Shown here in pieces: positions 1 to 8,543 of a stretch of 11,429 nucleotides of DNA. The stretch comes from Polaromonas sp. Its GTDB lineage: Bacteria; Pseudomonadota; Gammaproteobacteria; Burkholderiales; Burkholderiaceae_C. The number at the start of each line of letters is the position of its first letter. The stretch's first letter is position 1. The notes under the pieces are model-generated. The model did no database searches and was not told where the DNA came from. It saw nothing but the letters and a program-made list of their open reading frames with translations. A program made the translations under genes and the position numbers. Where the stretch lies: positions 1 to 11,429 of the forward strand of contig JACMQR010000378.1 of assembly GCA_014376885.1 (NCBI GenBank), in the 5' to 3' direction.

Positions 1-490
1 CGCGCGCCATCAGCGCGTTGACACGCGGCATGGCGGCCGGCAGGGCCGGCGCATCGTTCAGGGCCTCTTGGGCAGCGTCGCCTTCGGCCAGCAAGGCAAA
101 GTCGAGCAGGCGCTGGGTGTAGTCATAGGTGGCGCCCAGCACCTGGCCGCCGGGCACGTCCTTGAAGGTCGCCGACACGCGGCGCGCCAGCTGCATCTGC
201 GCGGTGTCCAGCGGCTCGCTGTAGGCAAAGCGCGCCAGCGTGGTGCGGTAGGCGCGCAGCAGAAAAATGGCCTCGACCAGATCGCCGCTGGCCTGCTTGA
301 TCGCCAGCGCCGCCAGCTCCGGGTCGTAGAGCGACCCCTCGGACATGACGCGGTCCACGGCCAGCGGCAATTGCGCCTGGATCTGGGCCACCGACAGCGC
401 GGGCAAGGCGGTGTCGCCGCGGCGCTGGGCGGCCAGCAGGCGCCAGGAATTCTCGATGGCGGCCGCGCCACCCTTGACTGCAACATACAT
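1..490 (-). CDS. phnI: C-P lyase core subunit PhnI, N-terminal part (truncated by window edge)
   Basis: The first 163 residues of PhnI are visible; the gene continues beyond position 1. It opens MYVAVKGG and carries the conserved blocks RRGDTALPALSVAQI, LAVDRVMSEGSLYD, AALAIKQASGDLVEAIFLLR and VPGGQVLGATYDYTQRLLDF, which closely match E. coli PhnI as I recall it. PhnI is the nucleosidase-like subunit of the PhnGHIJ core complex. With PhnG, PhnH and PhnL it exchanges the adenine of ATP for a phosphonate, giving a ribose-1-phosphonate 5'-triphosphate. The ATG at 490 follows the phnH stop after one base (TAATATG), and a GGAAG Shine-Dalgarno lies just upstream inside phnH, so translation is coupled. 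It is the third gene of a leftward phnG-H-I operon that presumably continues with phnJKLM. The identification is very secure; only the missing C-terminus cannot be checked. Confidence 0.97.
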   Translation of the reverse strand, partial: MYVAVKGGAAAIENSWRLLAAQRRGDTALPALSVAQIQAQLPLAVDRVMSEGSLYDPELAALAIKQASGDLVEAIFLLRAYRTTLARFAYSEPLDTAQMQLARRVSATFKDVPGGQVLGATYDYTQRLLDFALLAEGDAAQEALNDAPALPAAMPRVNALMAR

Positions 491-491
491 A

Positions 492-1091
492 TTAAATTTC
501 TTCCAGACGGCGCGCGCGGGTGGTGCGCGGCAGGCCCAGCGCCCGGCCCGCGCAGATGAAAACAATGTCCACGCCTTGCGGAAAAGCCGCCTGGTTGGCC
601 TGCCACTGCGCCCAGAAATCGTCTGGCAGGCCAGCCAGCCGCACCGTCTGCGCGCCCTGGATGCCCGGGCCGCGCCACTCGACCGCCGGTCCGGCGTCGA
701 GCGAGGCGACCTTCACCAGCAAGGTGGCCGAGCGCTCGGGGGCTTGGGCAGAACCGGCCGAAAAGGCGGTGAGCGGCGGCAACCCGGCGACGCTGTCCAG
801 CACGGCAAAAGCAGCGCATTCAGGTGTGGCGGCAAGGCTTGCGCCGGTGTGAAAGCGCAGCCAGGATGCCGCGGCAGGGTCGGCTTGCTGCCACCAGACC
901 GCCGTGTCGCCGTCGGTCAGCGCCAGCAGCGCATGCGCCATCGCGGGGCCCAGGGCAAGCCCCGGAACCGGCTGGCCGATGGCAAACGGCCGGCCGGGCC
1001 GCGACAGCGCATCGAGCACCGCGCGAAAAGCGGTTTGCGCGTCATGCACCGGGTCGGCAAAGCCGGCGCTGACCTCAGACAAATGACTCAT
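492..1091 (-). CDS. phnH: C-P lyase core subunit PhnH
   Basis: This 199-residue protein is close to the usual PhnH length (194 in E. coli). Recognisable family blocks are DPVHDAQTAFRAVLDALSRPG near the N-terminus (residues 13-33), LRFHTGASL (78-86), SATLLVKVASL (121-131), RGPGI (140-144), FPQGVDIVFIC (170-180) and the C-terminal PRTT (188-191). PhnH is a PLP-transferase-fold protein without PLP. It forms part of the PhnG2H2I2J2 complex and has no known catalytic role on its own. The start is the ATG at 1091, which overlaps the phnG stop in ATGA (1088-1091) and is preceded by a strong AGGAGAAG Shine-Dalgarno inside phnG. The stop TAA sits one base before the phnI start. No frameshift or missing block was seen. 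Confidence 0.96.
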   Translation of the reverse strand: MSHLSEVSAGFADPVHDAQTAFRAVLDALSRPGRPFAIGQPVPGLALGPAMAHALLALTDGDTAVWWQQADPAAASWLRFHTGASLAATPECAAFAVLDSVAGLPPLTAFSAGSAQAPERSATLLVKVASLDAGPAVEWRGPGIQGAQTVRLAGLPDDFWAQWQANQAAFPQGVDIVFICAGRALGLPRTTRARRLEEI

Positions 1092-1648: not shown

Positions 1649-2410
1649 ATGATGACAAACGCACACCCCTTTTCCAGCGCCCCCGGGCGGCGCAGCGGCC
1701 TGGCGGTCTGGAAACAGATTGCCGACACGCTGAGCACCGAAATCCGCGACCGGGCCTTCACCGAAGCCGGCCGCCTGCCCAGCGAAAGCGAGCTGGCCGC
1801 GCGCTTTGGCGTGAACCGCCACACGCTGCGCCAGGCGGTCGCCGCGCTGCAGGTCGACGGGCTGGTGCGCATCGAGCCGGGCCGGGGCACCTTTGTCCAG
1901 CACGAGCTGCTCGACTACGCGCTGTCGCGCCGCACGCGCTTTACCGAAAACCTGCAGCGCCAGGGGTTGCTGCCCAGCAAGCAGCTGCTGGCAGCGCGGG
2001 AAATGCCCGCACCCGAGCGCGCAGCGCAGCAGCTCAAGCTGGACAAAGGCGCTACAGTGCTGAGGGTCGAAATGCTCGACGAGGCGAATGACCGGCCGAT
2101 TGCGCTGGCCAGCGCCTACTACCCCGCCGAACGGTTTGCCGGGCTGCTCGAAATGCTGGGCGGCGGCACTGGCACCACGGAAATTCTGCGCCACTTCGGC
2201 GTGCAGGACTATGTGCGCGCCGAAAGCCGCATCACCACCCAGATGCCGTCTGCCGAAACCGCCCGCCTTTTAAAGCAGCCCGTGACGCGCCCGGTGCTGT
2301 GCGTGGAATGCCTGGACGTGGACATGGCGGGCCGGCCGATCAAGTACGGGGAAACCGTGTTTTGCGGCGACAGTGTTCAGCTGGTGGTGAGCGCCGGAGG
2401 CCCGGCATGA
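1649..2410 (+). CDS. phnF: GntR/HutC-family phosphonate regulator PhnF
   Basis: This 253-residue protein has an N-terminal GntR winged helix (about residues 17-85), shown by LPSESELAARFGVNRHTLRQ at 43-62 and the wing GRGTFV at 78-83. A C-terminal UTRA ligand-binding domain (about 105-245) follows, with the typical RVEMLDEANDRPIALASAYYP and GRPIKYGETVF segments. HutC/PhnF proteins are repressors released by a small effector; the effector here is unknown. The gene opens a rightward operon and faces phnG divergently. Tandem ATG codons occur at 1649 and 1652, with no good Shine-Dalgarno. A three-codon mini-frame (ATG ACC GAA TGA, 1641-1652) overlaps the start. The stop overlaps the next start as ATGA (2407-2410). 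The name rests on context plus the UTRA architecture. Confidence 0.93.
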   Translation: MMTNAHPFSSAPGRRSGLAVWKQIADTLSTEIRDRAFTEAGRLPSESELAARFGVNRHTLRQAVAALQVDGLVRIEPGRGTFVQHELLDYALSRRTRFTENLQRQGLLPSKQLLAAREMPAPERAAQQLKLDKGATVLRVEMLDEANDRPIALASAYYPAERFAGLLEMLGGGTGTTEILRHFGVQDYVRAESRITTQMPSAETARLLKQPVTRPVLCVECLDVDMAGRPIKYGETVFCGDSVQLVVSAGGPA

Positions 2411-3102
2411 GCGCCCGCTACGCCGTTTTCTTTGCGCCCGACCGGCACTCGCCCTGGCGCGAATTCGGCGCCCGCTGGCTGGGCCGCGACGAACACGACA
2501 GCGCGCTGCTGGCGCAGCCGCTGCTTGCCGGCGTTTCTCCGGAACACTTCGCACGGCTGACGCAGGAACCCCGGCGCTACGGCTTTCACGCGACGCTCAA
2601 GGCGCCTTTTCGCCTGGCCCACGGTATTGACGAGCCGGCCGTGCTGGCGCAGCTGCAAACGCTGGCGCGCCGGCTCAAGCCGGTTCTGCTGGGTCCGCTG
2701 CGAGCCACCACGCTGGGCAGCTTTGTGGCCCTGGTGCCTGAAACCATGCCGGCCGGCCTGCAGGCGCTGGCTGGCGCGTGCGTGACCGAGCTTGACGCCC
2801 TGCGCGCGCCACTGCGCGACGAAGAACTGGCGCGCCGCCGCGCCGCGCCGCTGGACATGCGCGAAGCCGAGTTGCTGGCCCAGTATGGCTATCCCTATGT
2901 CATGGAGCGCTTTCGCCTGCACTTCACCCTGACCGGACCGGCAACGCCTGAGCTGGCGCAGCGCGTCACCGATGCAGTCGCGCCGCAGCTTGACCGGCTC
3001 AATACGGACGCGCCCTTGTGGCTGGACCGCCTGTGCCTGTTCGTCGAGCGCGCGCCGGCAGCACCATTTCACCGGCTTATCGACCTGCGGCTGCAGCCAT
3101 GA
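2407..3102 (+). CDS. DUF1045 phosphonate-operon protein, 2H phosphoesterase superfamily
   Basis: The product has 231 residues and matches the DUF1045 family, often annotated only as a phosphonate metabolism protein. Two HxT motifs, the signature of the 2H phosphoesterase fold, are visible: H61-A-T63-L within YGFHATLKAPF, and H172-F-T174-L within RFRLHFTLTGP. The family N-terminus YAVFFAPD is also present. Members of the 2H superfamily typically act on cyclic or 2',3'-type phosphodiesters. I infer that this enzyme may open 5-phosphoribosyl 1,2-cyclic phosphate, the step that PhnP performs in E. coli; that function is not shown by sequence alone. Supporting context is strong: the gene overlaps phnF by 4 bp and phnN by 4 bp, and PhnN uses the predicted product. 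The start at 2407 has a GGAGG Shine-Dalgarno at 2396-2400. Confidence 0.9.
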   Translation: MSARYAVFFAPDRHSPWREFGARWLGRDEHDSALLAQPLLAGVSPEHFARLTQEPRRYGFHATLKAPFRLAHGIDEPAVLAQLQTLARRLKPVLLGPLRATTLGSFVALVPETMPAGLQALAGACVTELDALRAPLRDEELARRRAAPLDMREAELLAQYGYPYVMERFRLHFTLTGPATPELAQRVTDAVAPQLDRLNTDAPLWLDRLCLFVERAPAAPFHRLIDLRLQP

Positions 3103-3638
3103 GCGGCGCCTGGATTTTTGTCTGCGGCCCGTCCGGCGCCGGCAAAGACAGCGTGATCGCCCTGGCGCAACAAACCATTGGCGAGCACCAGGACATCGTG
3201 TTTGCGCGCCGCCTGGTGACGCGCCCGGCCCAGGCCGGCTCGGACCACGACCCGGTCAGCGAAGCGCAATTTCACGCCCTGCGGCAGGCTGGCGGCCTGC
3301 GCTGGCACTGGCAGGCGCATGGCTTTCATTACGCCATTGCCGCGCGCTATGCCGCCGACGTGCAGGCCGGGCGCCGGGTGGTGGTCAATGGCTCACGCGC
3401 CCATGTCCAGGGCTTGTCGCCCTCAGCCGAGGTGCGACGGGTGGAAGTGACCGCCAGCCCGGCGCTGCTGGCAGCCCGGCTGGCAGGGCGCGACCGGGAC
3501 ACGGCCAGCGCGGTGGCCGACCGGCTGGCGCGCGGCGCGGCCTGCTTTGGCAGCCGGGCCGCGAACTGCGTGATCGTCAACGACGCCGAACTGGCCGTCG
3601 CCGCGCAGCGCCTGGCCGACTACCTGACGGGCGACTGA
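3099..3638 (+). CDS. phnN: Ribose 1,5-bisphosphate phosphokinase PhnN
   Basis: This 179-residue protein resembles E. coli PhnN (185 residues) and the guanylate-kinase fold. The P-loop GPSGAGKDS is at residues 10-18, followed by ARRLVTRPAQAGSDHDPVSE with the family TR...GS(D/E) block, then WHWQAHGFHYA and VVVNGSRAH, all typical of PhnN. The enzyme phosphorylates ribose 1,5-bisphosphate with ATP to give PRPP, the last step of the C-P lyase pathway and its link to nucleotide synthesis. The ATG at 3099 overlaps the DUF1045 stop by 4 bp (ATGA), implying translational coupling. The final 19 bases overlap the end of the convergent HD-domain gene, so no dedicated terminator fits between them. Confidence 0.96.
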   Translation: MSGAWIFVCGPSGAGKDSVIALAQQTIGEHQDIVFARRLVTRPAQAGSDHDPVSEAQFHALRQAGGLRWHWQAHGFHYAIAARYAADVQAGRRVVVNGSRAHVQGLSPSAEVRRVEVTASPALLAARLAGRDRDTASAVADRLARGAACFGSRAANCVIVNDAELAVAAQRLADYLTGD

Positions 3639-4198
3639 GTGCCAACCGGGCAGCGGACGTTTTCCAGAATCGCCCGGTAGTGCGCCCAGCCGGGCGGCCG
3701 GGCAGCCGGGTCCTTGGCCCGGTCGTCCCAGCGGCGCAGGGCCAGCGCATCGGTGGCGAACGCCTGGGCGATGAAGGCCTTGGCCTGCGCGCTTGAAAAG
3801 GGCCCGCCCTGCAATGCCAGGCTGCGCCGGGACGCCGCTGACAGGCTGGCGCCATAGTGGCGGTCAGCCTGGCAAAGATAGCGCTTGGCGTCAACATGCA
3901 GGCGGATCGGCGCCAGCACGGCTTCGGAAAACACGCCGCGCAGAAAGGGCACGGCAAGTAACTGGTGCAGGTCGTCGACGGCGGCGGCGCGCGCCGGCTC
4001 TGCCGCATCGCCGGGGGCGACCAGATGCCCCAGGTCGTGCAACAGCGCCGCCGCCACCAGTTCGGCTGAGGCGCCCGCCTGCTCGGCCAGGTGCGCGCAT
4101 TGCAGCGCATGCTGGCGCTGGCTGATGGCTTCACCGCCATACCGCGCGCCACCCTGGATGTCAAACAACGCGCTAATGTCGTCAAGGGTCAGGGCCAT
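3620..4198 (-). CDS. PhnZ-like HD-domain mixed-valent di-iron oxygenase, phosphonate-associated
   Basis: This 192-residue HD-domain protein belongs to the phosphonate-degradation-associated HD group that includes PhnZ. As I recall the PhnZ ligands, equivalents are all visible: Y20 and E23 (substrate loop), H30, H54-D55 (the HD pair in LLHDLGHL), H78, H101, K105 in LHVDAKRY, and D158 in RRWDDRAKDP. Such enzymes use an Fe(II)/Fe(III) pair and O2 to cleave alpha-hydroxyphosphonates. PhnZ itself converts 2-amino-1-hydroxyethylphosphonate to glycine and phosphate. The hydroxylating partner PhnY is not in this window, so the substrate is unknown. The start at 4198 has a GAAGG Shine-Dalgarno, and the gap to the phnE stop is 10 bp, making it the last gene of the importer operon. 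The family is secure; the exact reaction is inference. Confidence 0.88.
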   Translation of the reverse strand: MALTLDDISALFDIQGGARYGGEAISQRQHALQCAHLAEQAGASAELVAAALLHDLGHLVAPGDAAEPARAAAVDDLHQLLAVPFLRGVFSEAVLAPIRLHVDAKRYLCQADRHYGASLSAASRRSLALQGGPFSSAQAKAFIAQAFATDALALRRWDDRAKDPAARPPGWAHYRAILENVRCPVGTQSPVR

Positions 4199-4208
4199 GG
4201 CAAAGCCT

Positions 4209-5030
4209 TCAGACCAGCGCCTGGCGGATGCGCGCCGACACCAGGTCGATCAGCGTCACGGTAACCACGATGATGACCATCACGGCGCAGGTTTCCGCAT
4301 ACTGAAAGCCGCGGATGATCTCCCACAGAATCACGCCGATGCCGCCGGCCCCGACCATGCCGACAACCGACGCTGAGCGCACATTGGACTCAAAGCGGTA
4401 CAGCGAATAGGAAATCCACAGCGGCAAGACCTGCGGAATGATGCCGTAGACGATTTCCTCCAGCGCATTGGCCCCGGTGGCTCGGATGCCTTCGACCGGC
4501 TGGGCGTCGATCGACTCGACGGCTTCGGAAAACAGCTTGGCCAGCACGCCGGTGGTGTGCACGAACAGCGCCAGCACGCCGGCAAACGGCCCCAGGCCGA
4601 CCGCCACGATGAACAGCATGGCAAACACCATCTCGTTGATCGCCCGGGCCGCATCCATGGCGCGCCGCACCGGCTGGCGCACCCAGGCGGGCGCGACATT
4701 GGCCGACGACAGCAGGCCCAGCGGAATGGCGAAAACCACCGCCAGCGCCGTGCCCCACAGGGCAATCTGCAAGGTGACGATCATCTCTTGCAGGTAGATG
4801 CGCCACTGGCTGAAGTTCGGCGGAAAGAAGTCGGCCGCGTAGGTGGCCATGTTGCCGGAATCTCGCACCAGGTCCAGCGGCCGCAGGTCGGCGCCCTGCC
4901 ATGACGCGGCCAGCAAGGCCGCCACGGCGCCCCACGACAGCAGGCGCAGCACGCCGGGCTTGGGCAGGGAAAGCGCAAGCGCTGCAGCCGGCGCGGCGGG
5001 CAGCGTCACAGGAATGGGTTGGACAGGCAT
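4209..5030 (-). CDS. phnE: Phosphonate ABC transporter permease PhnE
   Basis: The 273-residue inner-membrane protein has several hydrophobic spans, beginning with [14 protein letters not shown] (about 30-43), then [20 protein letters not shown] and [20 protein letters not shown]. The cytoplasmic coupling loop (EAA-type) is seen as [20 protein letters not shown] followed by GIIPQVLP. The C-terminal part [20 protein letters not shown] is characteristic of PhnE. It forms the membrane channel of the PhnCDE phosphonate importer and pairs with the ATPase PhnC. It lies 15 bp downstream of phnD and 10 bp upstream of the HD-domain gene on the same strand. The ATG at 5030 is the first plausible start, but its Shine-Dalgarno is weak, which may reflect coupling to phnD. 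Confidence 0.96.
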
Positions 5031-5045
5031 GTCGGGGAGCGCTGC

Positions 5046-6008
5046 TTATTTACTCAGTTCAGCAAGCTTTTTGTCCAGCTCGGCGAGCTTCACCTGCTTG
5101 TCCGTCGGGCTCATGGCCGCATCGGCTTCGAACCTGCTTTTTTCCTTGAACAGTTCGAGCTGGCGGATAGGGACCAGCTGGGCATTGGTCGAGGGCTTGA
5201 AGCCCGACAGCTTGGACAGTTTCATCAGGTGTTCTTTTTCCTGGGGGCTGCCCGTGCCGTAGGCAAAGAAGAACTCACGGATGCTTTTCTTGGTCGCCTC
5301 TGGCAGGTCCTTGCGCATCACCAGCGGGTCCAGCGGAATCAGGGGCGAGGTCCAGATGATGCGGATGTCGCTGAACTTTTCCGGCAGGCGGTCCTTCAGG
5401 CGGTCGAGTGTTTCGCTGTTCGTCACCGCCACGTCGACCAGCTTGTTGGCCGCCGCCAGCGCATTGGTTTCGTGGTTGGCGCCGCGCACCACCTTGAAGG
5501 CGGTCTTGGCGTCGACCTTGTTCTTGGCGAACACGTAGTAGCCGGGCACCAGAAAGCCCGATGTCGAGTTGGGGTCGCCGTTGCCGAACGACAGGCTTTT
5601 GCTGTTCTTGAGCACGTCGTCAAGCGACTTGAGCGGGCTGTCCTTGTTGACCACCAGGTGCGAGTAGTAGCCCAGGGTGCCGTCGGCATTGACCATCTGC
5701 GCGAACACCTCGCCATTGGCGCGGTCCACCGCCTCCATGGCCGACTTGTTGCCATACCAGGCCACATGCACCTTGTTGAAACGCATGCCTTCGATGATGC
5801 CGGCATAGTCCGAGGCAAAAAAGGCATTGACCTTCAGGCCGGTTTTTTTGGCCATGTCGTCCAGGATGGGCTGCCAGTCGGCCTTGAGGTTTTGCGATGC
5901 CTCGGTGGAGATGATGCCGAAGTTGATTTCCTTCAGCTCCTGCGCTCCGGCCGGCGTGAGGGCGACCAGCGCCGTGGCGGCCAGGCTGGCCAGCAATTTT
6001 TTAAGCAT
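5046..6008 (-). CDS. phnD: Periplasmic phosphonate-binding protein PhnD
   Basis: This 320-residue protein starts with a Sec signal peptide: KK, a hydrophobic stretch LLASLAATALVAL, and an AGA cleavage site after residue 22. The mature protein carries the PhnD ligand-pocket blocks NGDPNSTSGFLVPGYYVF, VRGANHETNALAAANKLVDV and TSPLIPLDPLVMRKDLP, and ends in a long charged helix with repeated lysine and leucine. It captures phosphonates in the periplasm and delivers them to PhnE. The family usually prefers 2-aminoethylphosphonate, but binding range cannot be read from sequence. The ATG at 6008 has a clear AAGGAAA Shine-Dalgarno about six bases upstream. A 41-bp gap separates it from phnC, the largest spacing inside this operon; I saw no terminator in it. 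Confidence 0.97.
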   Translation of the reverse strand: MLKKLLASLAATALVALTPAGAQELKEINFGIISTEASQNLKADWQPILDDMAKKTGLKVNAFFASDYAGIIEGMRFNKVHVAWYGNKSAMEAVDRANGEVFAQMVNADGTLGYYSHLVVNKDSPLKSLDDVLKNSKSLSFGNGDPNSTSGFLVPGYYVFAKNKVDAKTAFKVVRGANHETNALAAANKLVDVAVTNSETLDRLKDRLPEKFSDIRIIWTSPLIPLDPLVMRKDLPEATKKSIREFFFAYGTGSPQEKEHLMKLSKLSGFKPSTNAQLVPIRQLELFKEKSRFEADAAMSPTDKQVKLAELDKKLAELSK

Positions 6009-6049: not shown

Positions 6050-6913
6050 TCAGGCAGCGTGCGCCAGGGGCGCGGGCCAGGCCAGGTGCGGCACCGGCCG
6101 GGTCTTGTCGTCCAGGGTGGAGATGTGGTCGCCAAGCGCCAGGATGTCATCGGCCTGCGCGCCATACAGCCCGCGCAGCACCTCGGGCGTCAGCCCGGCG
6201 GAAGGGCCGTCGTAGACCACCCGGCCGTGGTGCAGGGCAATCGTGCGCGGGCAGTATTTGATGGCCACGTTCACCTGGTGCAGCGACACCACCACGGTGC
6301 AGCGGTCTTCGCGGTTGATGCGCGCCAGCATGTCCATCACCTTGCGCGAGGACTCCGGGTCGAGCGAGGCGATCGGCTCGTCGGCCAGCACCACCCGGGC
6401 GCCCTGCACCATGGCCCGGGCAATGGCGGCGCGCTGCTGCTGGCCGCCCGACAGCGTCGAGGCGCGCTGGGCCCAGCATTCGGCAATGCCGACGCGCCGC
6501 AGCGCCTCGATGCCGCGGGCTTTTTCCGCCGGGGTGAACCAGCGCGTCAGGCTGCGCCACAGCGGCATCTGGTGCAGCATTCCGGCCAGCACGTTGACGA
6601 TCACCGGCAGGCGGCCGACCAGGTTGAACTGCTGGAACACAAAGCCGATGCCCGCGCGCACTGCGCGGATGTCGCCGGCAATCTTGCCGTTGCGCTGCAC
6701 GCTGCGGCCATGGACCTCGATCGACCCGGGGGCATCGGCATCGCCGGCCATCAGTCCGGCCATGTGCCGCAGCAAGGTGGACTTTCCCGAGCCCGACGCC
6801 CCGATCAGCGCGACCATTTCGCCCGCGTCAATGCGCAGGTCGATGTGCTGGAGTGCCTGGCGGCCGTTGCCGAATGTTTTGCTCAGCGTGTTGATTCGAA
6901 TGGCAGCATCCAT
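6050..6913 (-). CDS. phnC: Phosphonate ABC transporter ATP-binding protein PhnC
   Basis: From the ATG at 6913 the product is 287 residues. Motifs in order are Walker [10 protein letters not shown] (38-46), Q-loop FVFQQFN (91-97), ABC signature LSGGQQQR (154-161), Walker B VVLADEP (174-180) with the following ASLDPES, and H-loop H212. It is the cytoplasmic ATPase driving the PhnCDE importer. The frame is open to a TTG at 6925, but the ATG at 6913 is preceded by TTGGAG at proper distance and is preferred. The C-terminal tail after about residue 265 is rich in Pro and Ala and looks unstructured. As the first gene of the leftward phnC-D-E-HD operon, it is expected to be phosphate-controlled through the Pho-box candidate in the adjoining intergenic region. 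Confidence 0.97.
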
Positions 6914-6940
6914 GCAATTCTCCAAGTATTGAATTGTTTT

Positions 6941-7034: not shown

Positions 7035-8543
7035 ATGCCAGGCATGTCCTACCTGCCTGCCTTCATCGCGCCCATCCGCTACACCGACCCGGCGGCTGCG
7101 CTGGCGCAGGTGCGCGCCATCTACGACCAGCAGATTGCTCACCTGCGCCGCGCCATGCAGCGCTATGTCGCCGGCGACACGCTGCCCGGCCATGTGCGCG
7201 CCTGCTACCCGTTCGTGCGCATCCACACCGACACGGTGGCCCGGGCAACGCTGGAAACGCCCGACACCCTGCAGCTGAGCTACGGCTTTGTCGCCGGGCC
7301 GGGGCGCTTTGAAACCACCCTCACCCGGCCCGACCTGTACAGCGACTATTACCTCGAGCAGTTCCGGCTCTTGATGCAAAACCACGAGGTGGCGCTCGAA
7401 GTGGGCACCAGCACGCAGCCGATCCCGATTCATTTCTCGTTCGCCGAGAACGACCACATCGAAGGCACGATGAGCACGGCCCGGCGCCTCTTGATGCGCG
7501 ACGTGTTCGACCTGCCCGACCTGGCGGCCATGGACGACGGCATTGCCAACGGCACCTACGAGGCCCGGCCCGGCGAGCCGCAGCCGCTGGCGCTGTTCAC
7601 CGCGGCGCGGGTCGACTACTCGCTGCAGCGCCTGCGCCACTACACCGGCACCTCGCCGCAGTGGTTCCAGAACTTCGTGCTGTTCACCAACTACCAGTTC
7701 TACATCGACGAGTTCGTGCGCCTGGGCCATGCCGAAATGGCCGACCCGGACAGCGAGTACAGCGCCTTCGTCGAGCCGGGCAATGTCGTCACGCGGCGCG
7801 CCGGCCTGGACGCGGGCAGCGACGACGCGCTGGGCGCTGTGCCGCCGCGCCTGCCGCAAATGCCGGCCTACCACCTGCTGCGCAAAGGCCGCAGCGGCAT
7901 CACGATGGTCAACATCGGCGTCGGCCCGGCCAACGCCAAGAACATCACCGACCATGTCGCCGTGCTGCGCCCGCATGCCTGGATCATGCTCGGCCACTGC
8001 GCCGGCCTGCGCAACAGCCAGCAACTGGGCGACTATGTGCTGGCCCACGGCTATGTGCGCGAAGACCATGTGCTGGACGAGGAGCTGCCGCTGTGGGTGC
8101 CGATTCCGGCATTGGCCGAAATCCAGGTCGCGCTGGAGGCGGCGGTGTCAGAGGTGACGCAGCTCAAGGGCCCGGAGCTCAAGCGCATCATGCGCACCGG
8201 CACCGTCGCCAGCACCGACAACCGCAACTGGGAGCTGCTGCCCGGCAACCAGCCGCAGCGCCGCTTCAGCCAGAGCCGCGCGATTGCGCTGGACATGGAA
8301 AGCGCGACGATTGCCGCCAACGGTTTTCGCTTCCGGGTGCCCTACGGCACGCTGCTGTGCGTGAGCGACAAGCCGCTGCACGGCGAGATCAAGCTGCCCG
8401 GCATGGCCAACCAGTTCTACCGCGACCGGGTCGACCAGCACTTGCGCATTGGCATGCGGGCGGTCGAGTTGCTGCGCGCCGAAGGTGTCACCCAGTTGCA
8501 CAGCCGCAAATTGCGCAGTTTTTCGGAAGTGGCGTTTCAGTAG
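7035..8543 (+). CDS. amn: AMP nucleosidase
   Basis: This 502-residue protein matches E. coli Amn (484 residues) along nearly its whole length from recall. Shared blocks include RVDYSLQRLRHYTGT, FVLFTNYQFYIDEFVR, MVNIGVGPANAKNITDH, MLGHCAGLRNSQQLGDY and the C-terminal LHSRKLRSFSE. The catalytic domain has the nucleoside-phosphorylase fold. D445 in CVSDKPLHGE corresponds to the catalytic Asp428 of E. coli, and M421-E422 lie in ALDMESATIAA. The enzyme hydrolyses AMP to adenine and ribose 5-phosphate in the cytoplasm and helps control adenylate levels. Start choice is uncertain: ATG at 7035 or 7044, neither with a good Shine-Dalgarno; a GC-rich upstream extension to 6978 looks non-coding. It is divergent from phnC and shares the Pho-box-like region. 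Confidence 0.95.
   Translation: MPGMSYLPAFIAPIRYTDPAAALAQVRAIYDQQIAHLRRAMQRYVAGDTLPGHVRACYPFVRIHTDTVARATLETPDTLQLSYGFVAGPGRFETTLTRPDLYSDYYLEQFRLLMQNHEVALEVGTSTQPIPIHFSFAENDHIEGTMSTARRLLMRDVFDLPDLAAMDDGIANGTYEARPGEPQPLALFTAARVDYSLQRLRHYTGTSPQWFQNFVLFTNYQFYIDEFVRLGHAEMADPDSEYSAFVEPGNVVTRRAGLDAGSDDALGAVPPRLPQMPAYHLLRKGRSGITMVNIGVGPANAKNITDHVAVLRPHAWIMLGHCAGLRNSQQLGDYVLAHGYVREDHVLDEELPLWVPIPALAEIQVALEAAVSEVTQLKGPELKRIMRTGTVASTDNRNWELLPGNQPQRRFSQSRAIALDMESATIAANGFRFRVPYGTLLCVSDKPLHGEIKLPGMANQFYRDRVDQHLRIGMRAVELLRAEGVTQLHSRKLRSFSEVAFQ

Follow-up and report, generated by a model that had tools for sequence, protein, structure and literature searches.

A DUF1045 2H phosphoesterase as a probable stand-in for PhnP in the C–P lyase locus of a Polaromonas

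Here we analysed an 11,429-nucleotide stretch of DNA from Polaromonas sp. (assembly GCA_014376885.1, contig JACMQR010000378.1; hereafter, the window), which carries a carbon–phosphorus (C–P) lyase locus that includes a gene for a DUF1045 protein. We consider it very likely that this protein is a 2H phosphoesterase that opens 5-phospho-α-D-ribosyl 1,2-cyclic phosphate in place of PhnP. In the proposed pathway, PhnJ yields the cyclic phosphate, DUF1045 would open it at the O2–P bond to give ribose 1,5-bisphosphate, and PhnN would convert the latter to phosphoribosyl pyrophosphate (PRPP); the replacement of the unrelated PhnP would be a non-homologous displacement. The reaction and its regiochemistry are what we infer; the sequence motifs, the fold, the genome-wide exclusion with PhnP and the co-occurrence with PhnJ and PhnN are established here. 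The stand-in role is well supported: no genome searched for both holds DUF1045 together with PhnP over its cut-off, PhnN is nearly always present, and an enzyme with the same chemistry on a ribose 1,2-cyclic phosphate shares the fold. The idea is already in print (2009–2014), and our result is a correct rediscovery that agrees with the printed proposal on a larger scale.

The window protein scores 251.6 bits against TIGR03223 (cut-off of 248.95) and 171 bits against PF06299 (cut-off of 24.3). Its two HxT motifs, H61-A-T63 (HAT) and H172-F-T174 (HFT), are exactly where a first-pass annotation, made from the sequence alone, had placed them; one more HxS match lies at H30. We aligned 94 proteins from the 101 DUF1045 frames in the fetched loci, leaving out 3 duplicate loci, two weak matches (L026 and L027; L, G and C numbers are our handles for loci, genomes and contigs) and a relic that appears in both L184 and L210. 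H61 and H172 are present in all 94, T63 in 91 and threonine or serine at position 174 in 91; both HxT/S motifs are kept in 91 of the 94 and are intact in all 90 proteins compared outside a clade that is found in ureide clusters. This conservation indicates that the motifs are not due to chance. By analogy with the 2H family, they would hold the phosphate and serve as the general acid and base, with no metal. R4, R133 and R/K143 are conserved as well and may bind the phosphates. The predicted structure (predicted local distance difference test (pLDDT) score of 95) has a 2H phosphoesterase fold. Profiles of the LigT type come close to their thresholds: PF02834 reaches 21.0 bits for the window protein, below its cut-off of 23.3, and PF13563 reaches 27.9 bits (cut-off of 27) for a single relative (L191). 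No PhnP-type match to the window protein was found among the NCBIfam or Pfam profiles, the fold being of the 2H type instead, and a Protein Data Bank (PDB) sequence search with the protein and its alignment returned nothing meaningful (matches to BTK at E > 1 are due to chance). Fusion of DUF1045 to another phn domain was seen in none of the 101 frames; in the five that are longer than 300 amino acids DUF1045 is C-terminal without a second phn domain, and it is the sole Pfam domain of the longest (L191).

Among genomes that encode PhnJ, DUF1045 and PhnP exclude each other. Profile searches for the three proteins were made in 398 Pseudomonadota genomes, with PhnP called by the TIGR03307 cut-off (272 bits). 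Full-length DUF1045 matches of less than 248.95 bits were accepted (41 of the 71 matching genomes are over that cut-off), as was, in the second sample described below, one partial match (G413, 206.7 bits, 34–227); a genome with a PhnJ fragment containing stops (G040) and two with weak partial DUF1045 matches (G210 and G288) were dropped from the counts. Full-length PhnJ was found in 83 genomes, DUF1045 in 69 and PhnP over the cut-off in 19, each of which also has PhnJ. The 83 PhnJ genomes comprise 62 with DUF1045 only, 19 with PhnP only, none with both and 2 with neither (G374 and G377). Both states occur in the family to which the window belongs: DUF1045 in its own genome (G000) and in G246, and PhnP in G366. 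A phnP gene elsewhere in the window’s genome would speak against a stand-in role, as the first-pass annotation had pointed out; no PhnP match was found in G000, a metagenome-assembled genome (MAG) that is 78% complete.

A second sample consisted of the best 80 PhnJ loci from a scan of the collection with an E. coli-led query, and is therefore biased towards E. coli-like operons. In up to 10 kb of fetched flanking sequence, our own profiles identified PhnP in 53, DUF1045 in 11, neither in 16 and both in none. Genome-wide searches for PhnP in 27 of these genomes (the 16 with neither and the 11 with DUF1045) added a single case, Pectobacterium carotovorum, and genome-wide searches for DUF1045 in 50 found it in 9 of the 16 (one of them G413) and in 0 of 34 PhnP genomes (34 of the 53 were searched and 19 left out). 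Every named alpha- or betaproteobacterial genome with neither enzyme near phnJ carries DUF1045 elsewhere (9 of 9). Those that still have neither are Rahnella ecdela, Rahnella victoriana, Erwinia persicina, Sodalis sp. dw_96, Pantoea sp. AS-PWVM4 and a Desulfovibrio MAG (G410). A third sample covered 247 genomes of the phylum of this MAG; PhnJ is present in 16, of which 1 has PhnP, 3 have DUF1045, none has both and 12 have neither. Pooled without deduplication, with G410 counted once, the three samples hold 159 PhnJ genomes, 85 with DUF1045, 55 with PhnP, 0 with both and 19 with neither. PhnP over the cut-off thus occurs in none of the 85 genomes with PhnJ and DUF1045 (62 + 20 + 3 across the samples), and the mutual exclusion for which the first-pass annotation had proposed a survey is borne out in all three. 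Extra phnJ matches occur in G071 (L053 and L063) and G194 (G194:C103), three in all in each genome, and some of these matches have broken frames of DUF1045 or phnN close by.

PhnN over its cut-off was found in 76 of the 80 genomes searched for it (79 with full PhnJ, plus G040), including 55 of the 58 DUF1045 genomes of that set; in G246, a 135-bit PhnN adjoins DUF1045. In the Desulfovibrio phylum, phn loci with PhnN are those of the PhnP genome, two of the three DUF1045 genomes and G410, where it lies beside a DUF1045 relic; no PhnN was found in the other 12 of the 16 phn loci (only loci were searched, and some are cut by contig ends). That PhnN accompanies a ring-opening enzyme suggests that the product is ribose 1,5-bisphosphate. 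By our own labels, phnM or phnN lies within 250 bp of DUF1045 for 55 of 62 genes and phnM for 48 of 62, and 5 of 62 have no phn gene within that distance. The position in the operon is, on its own, a weak guide. The first-pass annotation had read a 4-bp overlap between DUF1045 and phnN as a sign that a PhnP stand-in is coupled to PhnN; the overlap itself agrees with the coordinates (Table 1), and the stand-in part of that reading holds up on exclusion, PhnN co-occurrence and fold, but no special coupling to phnN applies across the family: the two genes are 250 bp or less apart in 22 of 58 genomes, and in 16 of those 22 they are convergent rather than co-directional.

Two unusual arrangements involve PhnN. 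In one DUF1045 genome (G382; L107:7619–9775), PhnN is fused to a domain of the AMP-phosphorylase/thymidine-phosphorylase type, which fits a shared pool of ribose 1,5-bisphosphate. In a genome without PhnJ (G322; L011:7759–10501), there is a mini-cluster of phnM, DUF1045 and phnN, followed by a 209-amino-acid frame with no family match. A long PhnN frame in L080 that had been considered a PhnN–phosphorylase fusion is not one, as its first 507 residues match nothing.

Earlier literature names the substitute RcsF. An excerpt of PMC10574752 cites Podzelinska 2009 for 54 phn operons, with PhnP in 27 and rcsF in 16 without phnP. Excerpts of PMC3840354 propose RcsF in place of PhnP and describe a fosmid with rcsF and without phnP that restores the growth of E. 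coli ΔphnHIJKLMNOP on methylphosphonate, and part of PMC8235418 repeats the Hove-Jensen 2014 proposal for DUF1045 by name, calling the function uncertain. RcsF is very probably DUF1045 (TIGR03223), because the 2H protein of phn clusters without phnP is described under both names and because the gene orders match: the order phnM, rcsF, phnN, phnL given in PMC5649143 is the same as in loci such as L048.

Several observations weigh against a stand-in role or reduce the force of the counts. The absence of PhnP depends on the TIGR03307 cut-off. Weaker matches to the PhnP profile (E ≤ 0.001) occur in 311 of the 398 genomes, with or without PhnJ, and in 11 of 14 control genomes, and many DUF1045 genomes hold full-length weaker matches of up to 86 bits (for example, G280 and G247). 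We read these as other metallo-β-lactamase proteins because PhnJ-less genomes have them too, at up to 108 bits, the next-best score below the 272-bit cut-off. According to an excerpt of PMC8774927, in which DUF1045 is unmentioned, each of seven Marivita genomes has a phnP as assigned by KEGG number; this phnP may be another metallo-β-lactamase protein. The fosmid rescue in the excerpt of PMC3840354 concerns a whole cluster, not a single gene, and that text says RcsF, not DUF1045; an assay of a DUF1045 or RcsF protein was not found in the literature searched. Genome searches found no PhnN in G016 and G032, which encode both PhnJ and DUF1045, and PhnN is absent from the phn locus of another DUF1045 genome (G699, in which only the locus was searched). 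PhnJ is missing from 7 of the 69 DUF1045 genomes (among 315 PhnJ-less genomes), and four genomes of one family hold, in addition to the phn-linked gene, a second DUF1045 copy in a ureide cluster. Finally, the states PhnP and DUF1045 need just 2 changes on the 143 labelled rows of a PhnJ tree. This was a quick tree of 162 rows (78 DUF1045, 65 PhnP and 19 neither) with several long branches flagged; duplicates (L001, L004 and L005), a locus in which no PhnJ frame was found (L166) and genomes with PhnJ outside the fetched loci are not on it. The exclusion is therefore weaker evidence than the raw counts suggest, and reflects mostly two operon lineages rather than many independent replacements. 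A sign test on independent pairs of the tree had just 2 supported pairs, too few to be informative, and the Fisher values ignore kinship. The counts fit a stand-in role, yet do not amount to many independent tests. Better evidence is that DUF1045 is kept in the genome after leaving the operon: in 17 of 62 genomes it does not lie within 15 kb of PhnJ (in one of them by way of a contig break), and of the 16 named genomes in which phnJ has neither enzyme close by, 9 carry it elsewhere.

The genomes with DUF1045 but no PhnJ speak for the possibility that DUF1045 mainly acts on another cyclic phosphate, such as 2′,3′-cyclic nucleotides or RNA ends, with its link to phn genes being secondary. Such 2′,3′-cyclic phosphates are substrates of other 2H enzymes (PMC5283653), and stand-alone DUF1045 genes adjoin, for example, genes for a carbohydrate phosphorylase (L012) and a class V aminotransferase (L052). 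We regard this explanation as improbable, given that PhnJ is present in 62 of the 69 DUF1045 genomes, that phnM or phnN so often lies within 250 bp and that DUF1045 is kept elsewhere in all nine named alpha- and betaproteobacterial genomes whose phnJ has neither enzyme close by. Still less probable is a different ring opening, to ribose 2,5-bisphosphate or on to ribose 5-phosphate and phosphate in the manner of PhnPP (a route cited in the excerpt of PMC8774927), which would suit the absence of PhnN in G016, G032 and G699, but PhnN accompanies DUF1045 in 56 of 58 genomes (one below the cut-off) and the 2H precedent yields a 1-phosphate.

The second DUF1045 copies belong to four genomes (G043, G107, G253 and G265) of family f51, which we take to be the Rhizobiaceae, and lie at L018:9476–10183, L019:9889–10779, L020:10248–10955 and L021:9725–10432. 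On one side is a gene for a flavin adenine dinucleotide (FAD) oxidoreductase, itself beside a Methyltransf_30 gene, and on the other are genes for the allantoinase PuuE (527.5 bits) and OHCU decarboxylase (203.8 bits); these families were read on L018 and L021, and on the others by similarity. The four copies form one clade (Shimodaira–Hasegawa approximate likelihood-ratio test (SH-aLRT) support of 99). All four have lost Y162, which is present in the 90 other proteins, and in three of the four both HxT motifs are replaced, by HxV and HxP. Judging from these residues, their activity has probably been changed or lost.

In some PhnJ genomes, neither PhnP over the cut-off nor DUF1045 was found genome-wide: the five named Enterobacterales (L117, L119, L121, L122 and L127) and G374 (L009) and G377 (L010), of the same class as the window. 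Another enzyme may serve ring opening in these genomes. A hexapeptide transferase that adjoins phnN in Rahnella and Sodalis was rejected as the phosphodiesterase, as it belongs instead to the TIGR03308 family (scanned for L117). In the Desulfovibrio MAG, a degenerate DUF1045 frame lies between phnM and phnN (L210:13044–13574); its second motif is KLT instead of HxT and its first was not found.

Of the 12 Desulfovibrio-phylum PhnJ genomes with neither enzyme, 7 have a triosephosphate isomerase (TIM)-barrel gene (PF01261) inside the phn cluster, directly after phnM (L211, L212, L213 and L221) or between phnE and phnG (L215, L216 and L217). The other six proteins are 48–71% identical to that of L212, and a profile of the seven finds only those 7 genomes among the 247 at E ≤ 1e-30; in 73 further genomes with PhnJ it gives only 5 weaker matches at E ≤ 1e-20 (up to 140 bits). 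Among the phylum’s 16 PhnJ genomes, the gene occurs in 7 of 12 that lack both enzymes versus 0 of 4 others (Fisher P = 0.09). The protein matches the phosphodiesterases CbiR and endonuclease IV far below their cut-offs, and its invariant H, D and E residues resemble the metal site of endonuclease IV. The best structural matches of its predicted model (a middling pLDDT of 75.9) are sugar 3-epimerases and MJ1311, and named homologues are annotated as sugar phosphate isomerase/epimerase. That it acts as a phosphodiesterase is a guess, and it is no less likely to be an epimerase or isomerase. No TIM-barrel gene of this kind with C–P lyase is described in the literature searched for it. An excerpt of PMC4046663 describes growth on phosphonates for Desulfotignum phosphitoxidans, which lacks PhnN and PhnP, and such bacteria must therefore have some route. 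We tentatively suggest, while thinking it rather doubtful, that there are at least three unrelated solutions to ring opening (PhnP, DUF1045 and, in the Desulfovibrio phylum, a TIM-barrel enzyme of the xylose-isomerase/endonuclease-IV superfamily without PhnN), and that DUF1045 was in addition recruited to a Rhizobium-like ureide cluster with a changed active site.

The window locus has the order phnI (cut)–phnH–phnG on the reverse strand, phnF–DUF1045–phnN on the forward strand and Phn-HD–phnE–phnD–phnC on the reverse strand (Table 1). The phnF/DUF1045 and DUF1045/phnN overlaps are each the 4 bp ATGA, and phnN and the Phn-HD gene are convergent with a 19-bp overlap. The phnC frame opens at 6925 and its first ATG is at 6913. 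The Phn-HD protein has sub-threshold matches to the models of TmpB and PhnZ as well; its presence in a C–P lyase cluster possibly reflects a second phosphonate route. Another contig of the same MAG (C393) ends in 999 bp (4436–5434) that match window positions 1–999 at 96.1% identity, and it continues into phnI-J-K-L-M; two versions of one stretch at this identity indicate that the MAG probably mixes strains. The layout of phnG to phnM, F–DUF1045–N and E–D recurs at L071, L072 and L082, which come from three genomes of the window’s order; L072 has an additional phnM, and none of the three genomes has PhnP over the cut-off.

Table 1 Genes of the phosphonate locus and its neighbour in the window
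Feature	Coordinates	Strand	Remarks
phnI, N-terminal part	1–490	−	Cut by window edge
phnH, C–P lyase core subunit	492–1091	−	
phnG, C–P lyase core subunit	1088–1552	−	
phnF, GntR/UTRA regulator	1649–2410	+	Overlaps DUF1045 by 4 bp
DUF1045/RcsF-type 2H phosphoesterase, 231 amino acids	2407–3102	+	Proposed 5-phosphoribosyl 1,2-cyclic phosphate phosphodiesterase
phnN, ribose 1,5-bisphosphate phosphokinase	3099–3638	+	TIGR02322, 157.9 bits (cut-off 156)
Phn-HD, HD-domain oxygenase of phosphonate degradation, accessory	3620–4198	−	TIGR03276, 218.9 bits (cut-off 214.6)
phnE, phosphonate ABC permease	4209–5030	−	TIGR01097, 298.6 bits
phnD, phosphonate-binding protein	5046–6008	−	TIGR03431, 350.6 bits
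phnC, phosphonate ABC ATPase	6050–6913	−	TIGR02315, 284.6 bits
AMP nucleosidase, beside the phn cluster	7041–8543		PRK08292, 773.6 bits

The ring-opening step decides whether phosphonate phosphorus, for example from methylphosphonate or glyphosate, enters metabolism. Gene lists such as that in the excerpt of PMC8774927 use phnP or phnPP, yet in the PhnJ genomes of our first sample DUF1045 (62) is more frequent than PhnP (19). If DUF1045 is confirmed in its proposed role, many alpha- and betaproteobacteria would have a complete pathway, and a real gap would be filled by identifying the solution of the Desulfovibrio-phylum anaerobes and of some Enterobacterales.

Compared with known systems, the window protein belongs over its full length to the family known as TIGR03223 (Phn_opern_protn), PF06299 or RcsF, with no difference in the protein; excerpts of PMC3840354, PMC8235418 and PMC10574752 place this family with C–P lyase genes and propose it as a PhnP substitute. 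The gene differs in position, as it sits between phnF and phnN in the window, whereas phnM is the commoner neighbour elsewhere. E. coli PhnP, which has a metallo-β-lactamase fold, is unrelated to DUF1045 in sequence and fold, although the two would share substrate, product and place in the pathway (before PhnN). E. coli LigT acts on RNA-type substrates, unlike that proposed for DUF1045; B. subtilis YjcG was also compared. The Arabidopsis cyclic phosphodiesterase (PDB 1fsi, 1jh6 and 1jh7), although of a different family and only about 15% identical, has a 2H fold like that of DUF1045 and opens ribose 1,2-cyclic phosphate to the 1-phosphate.
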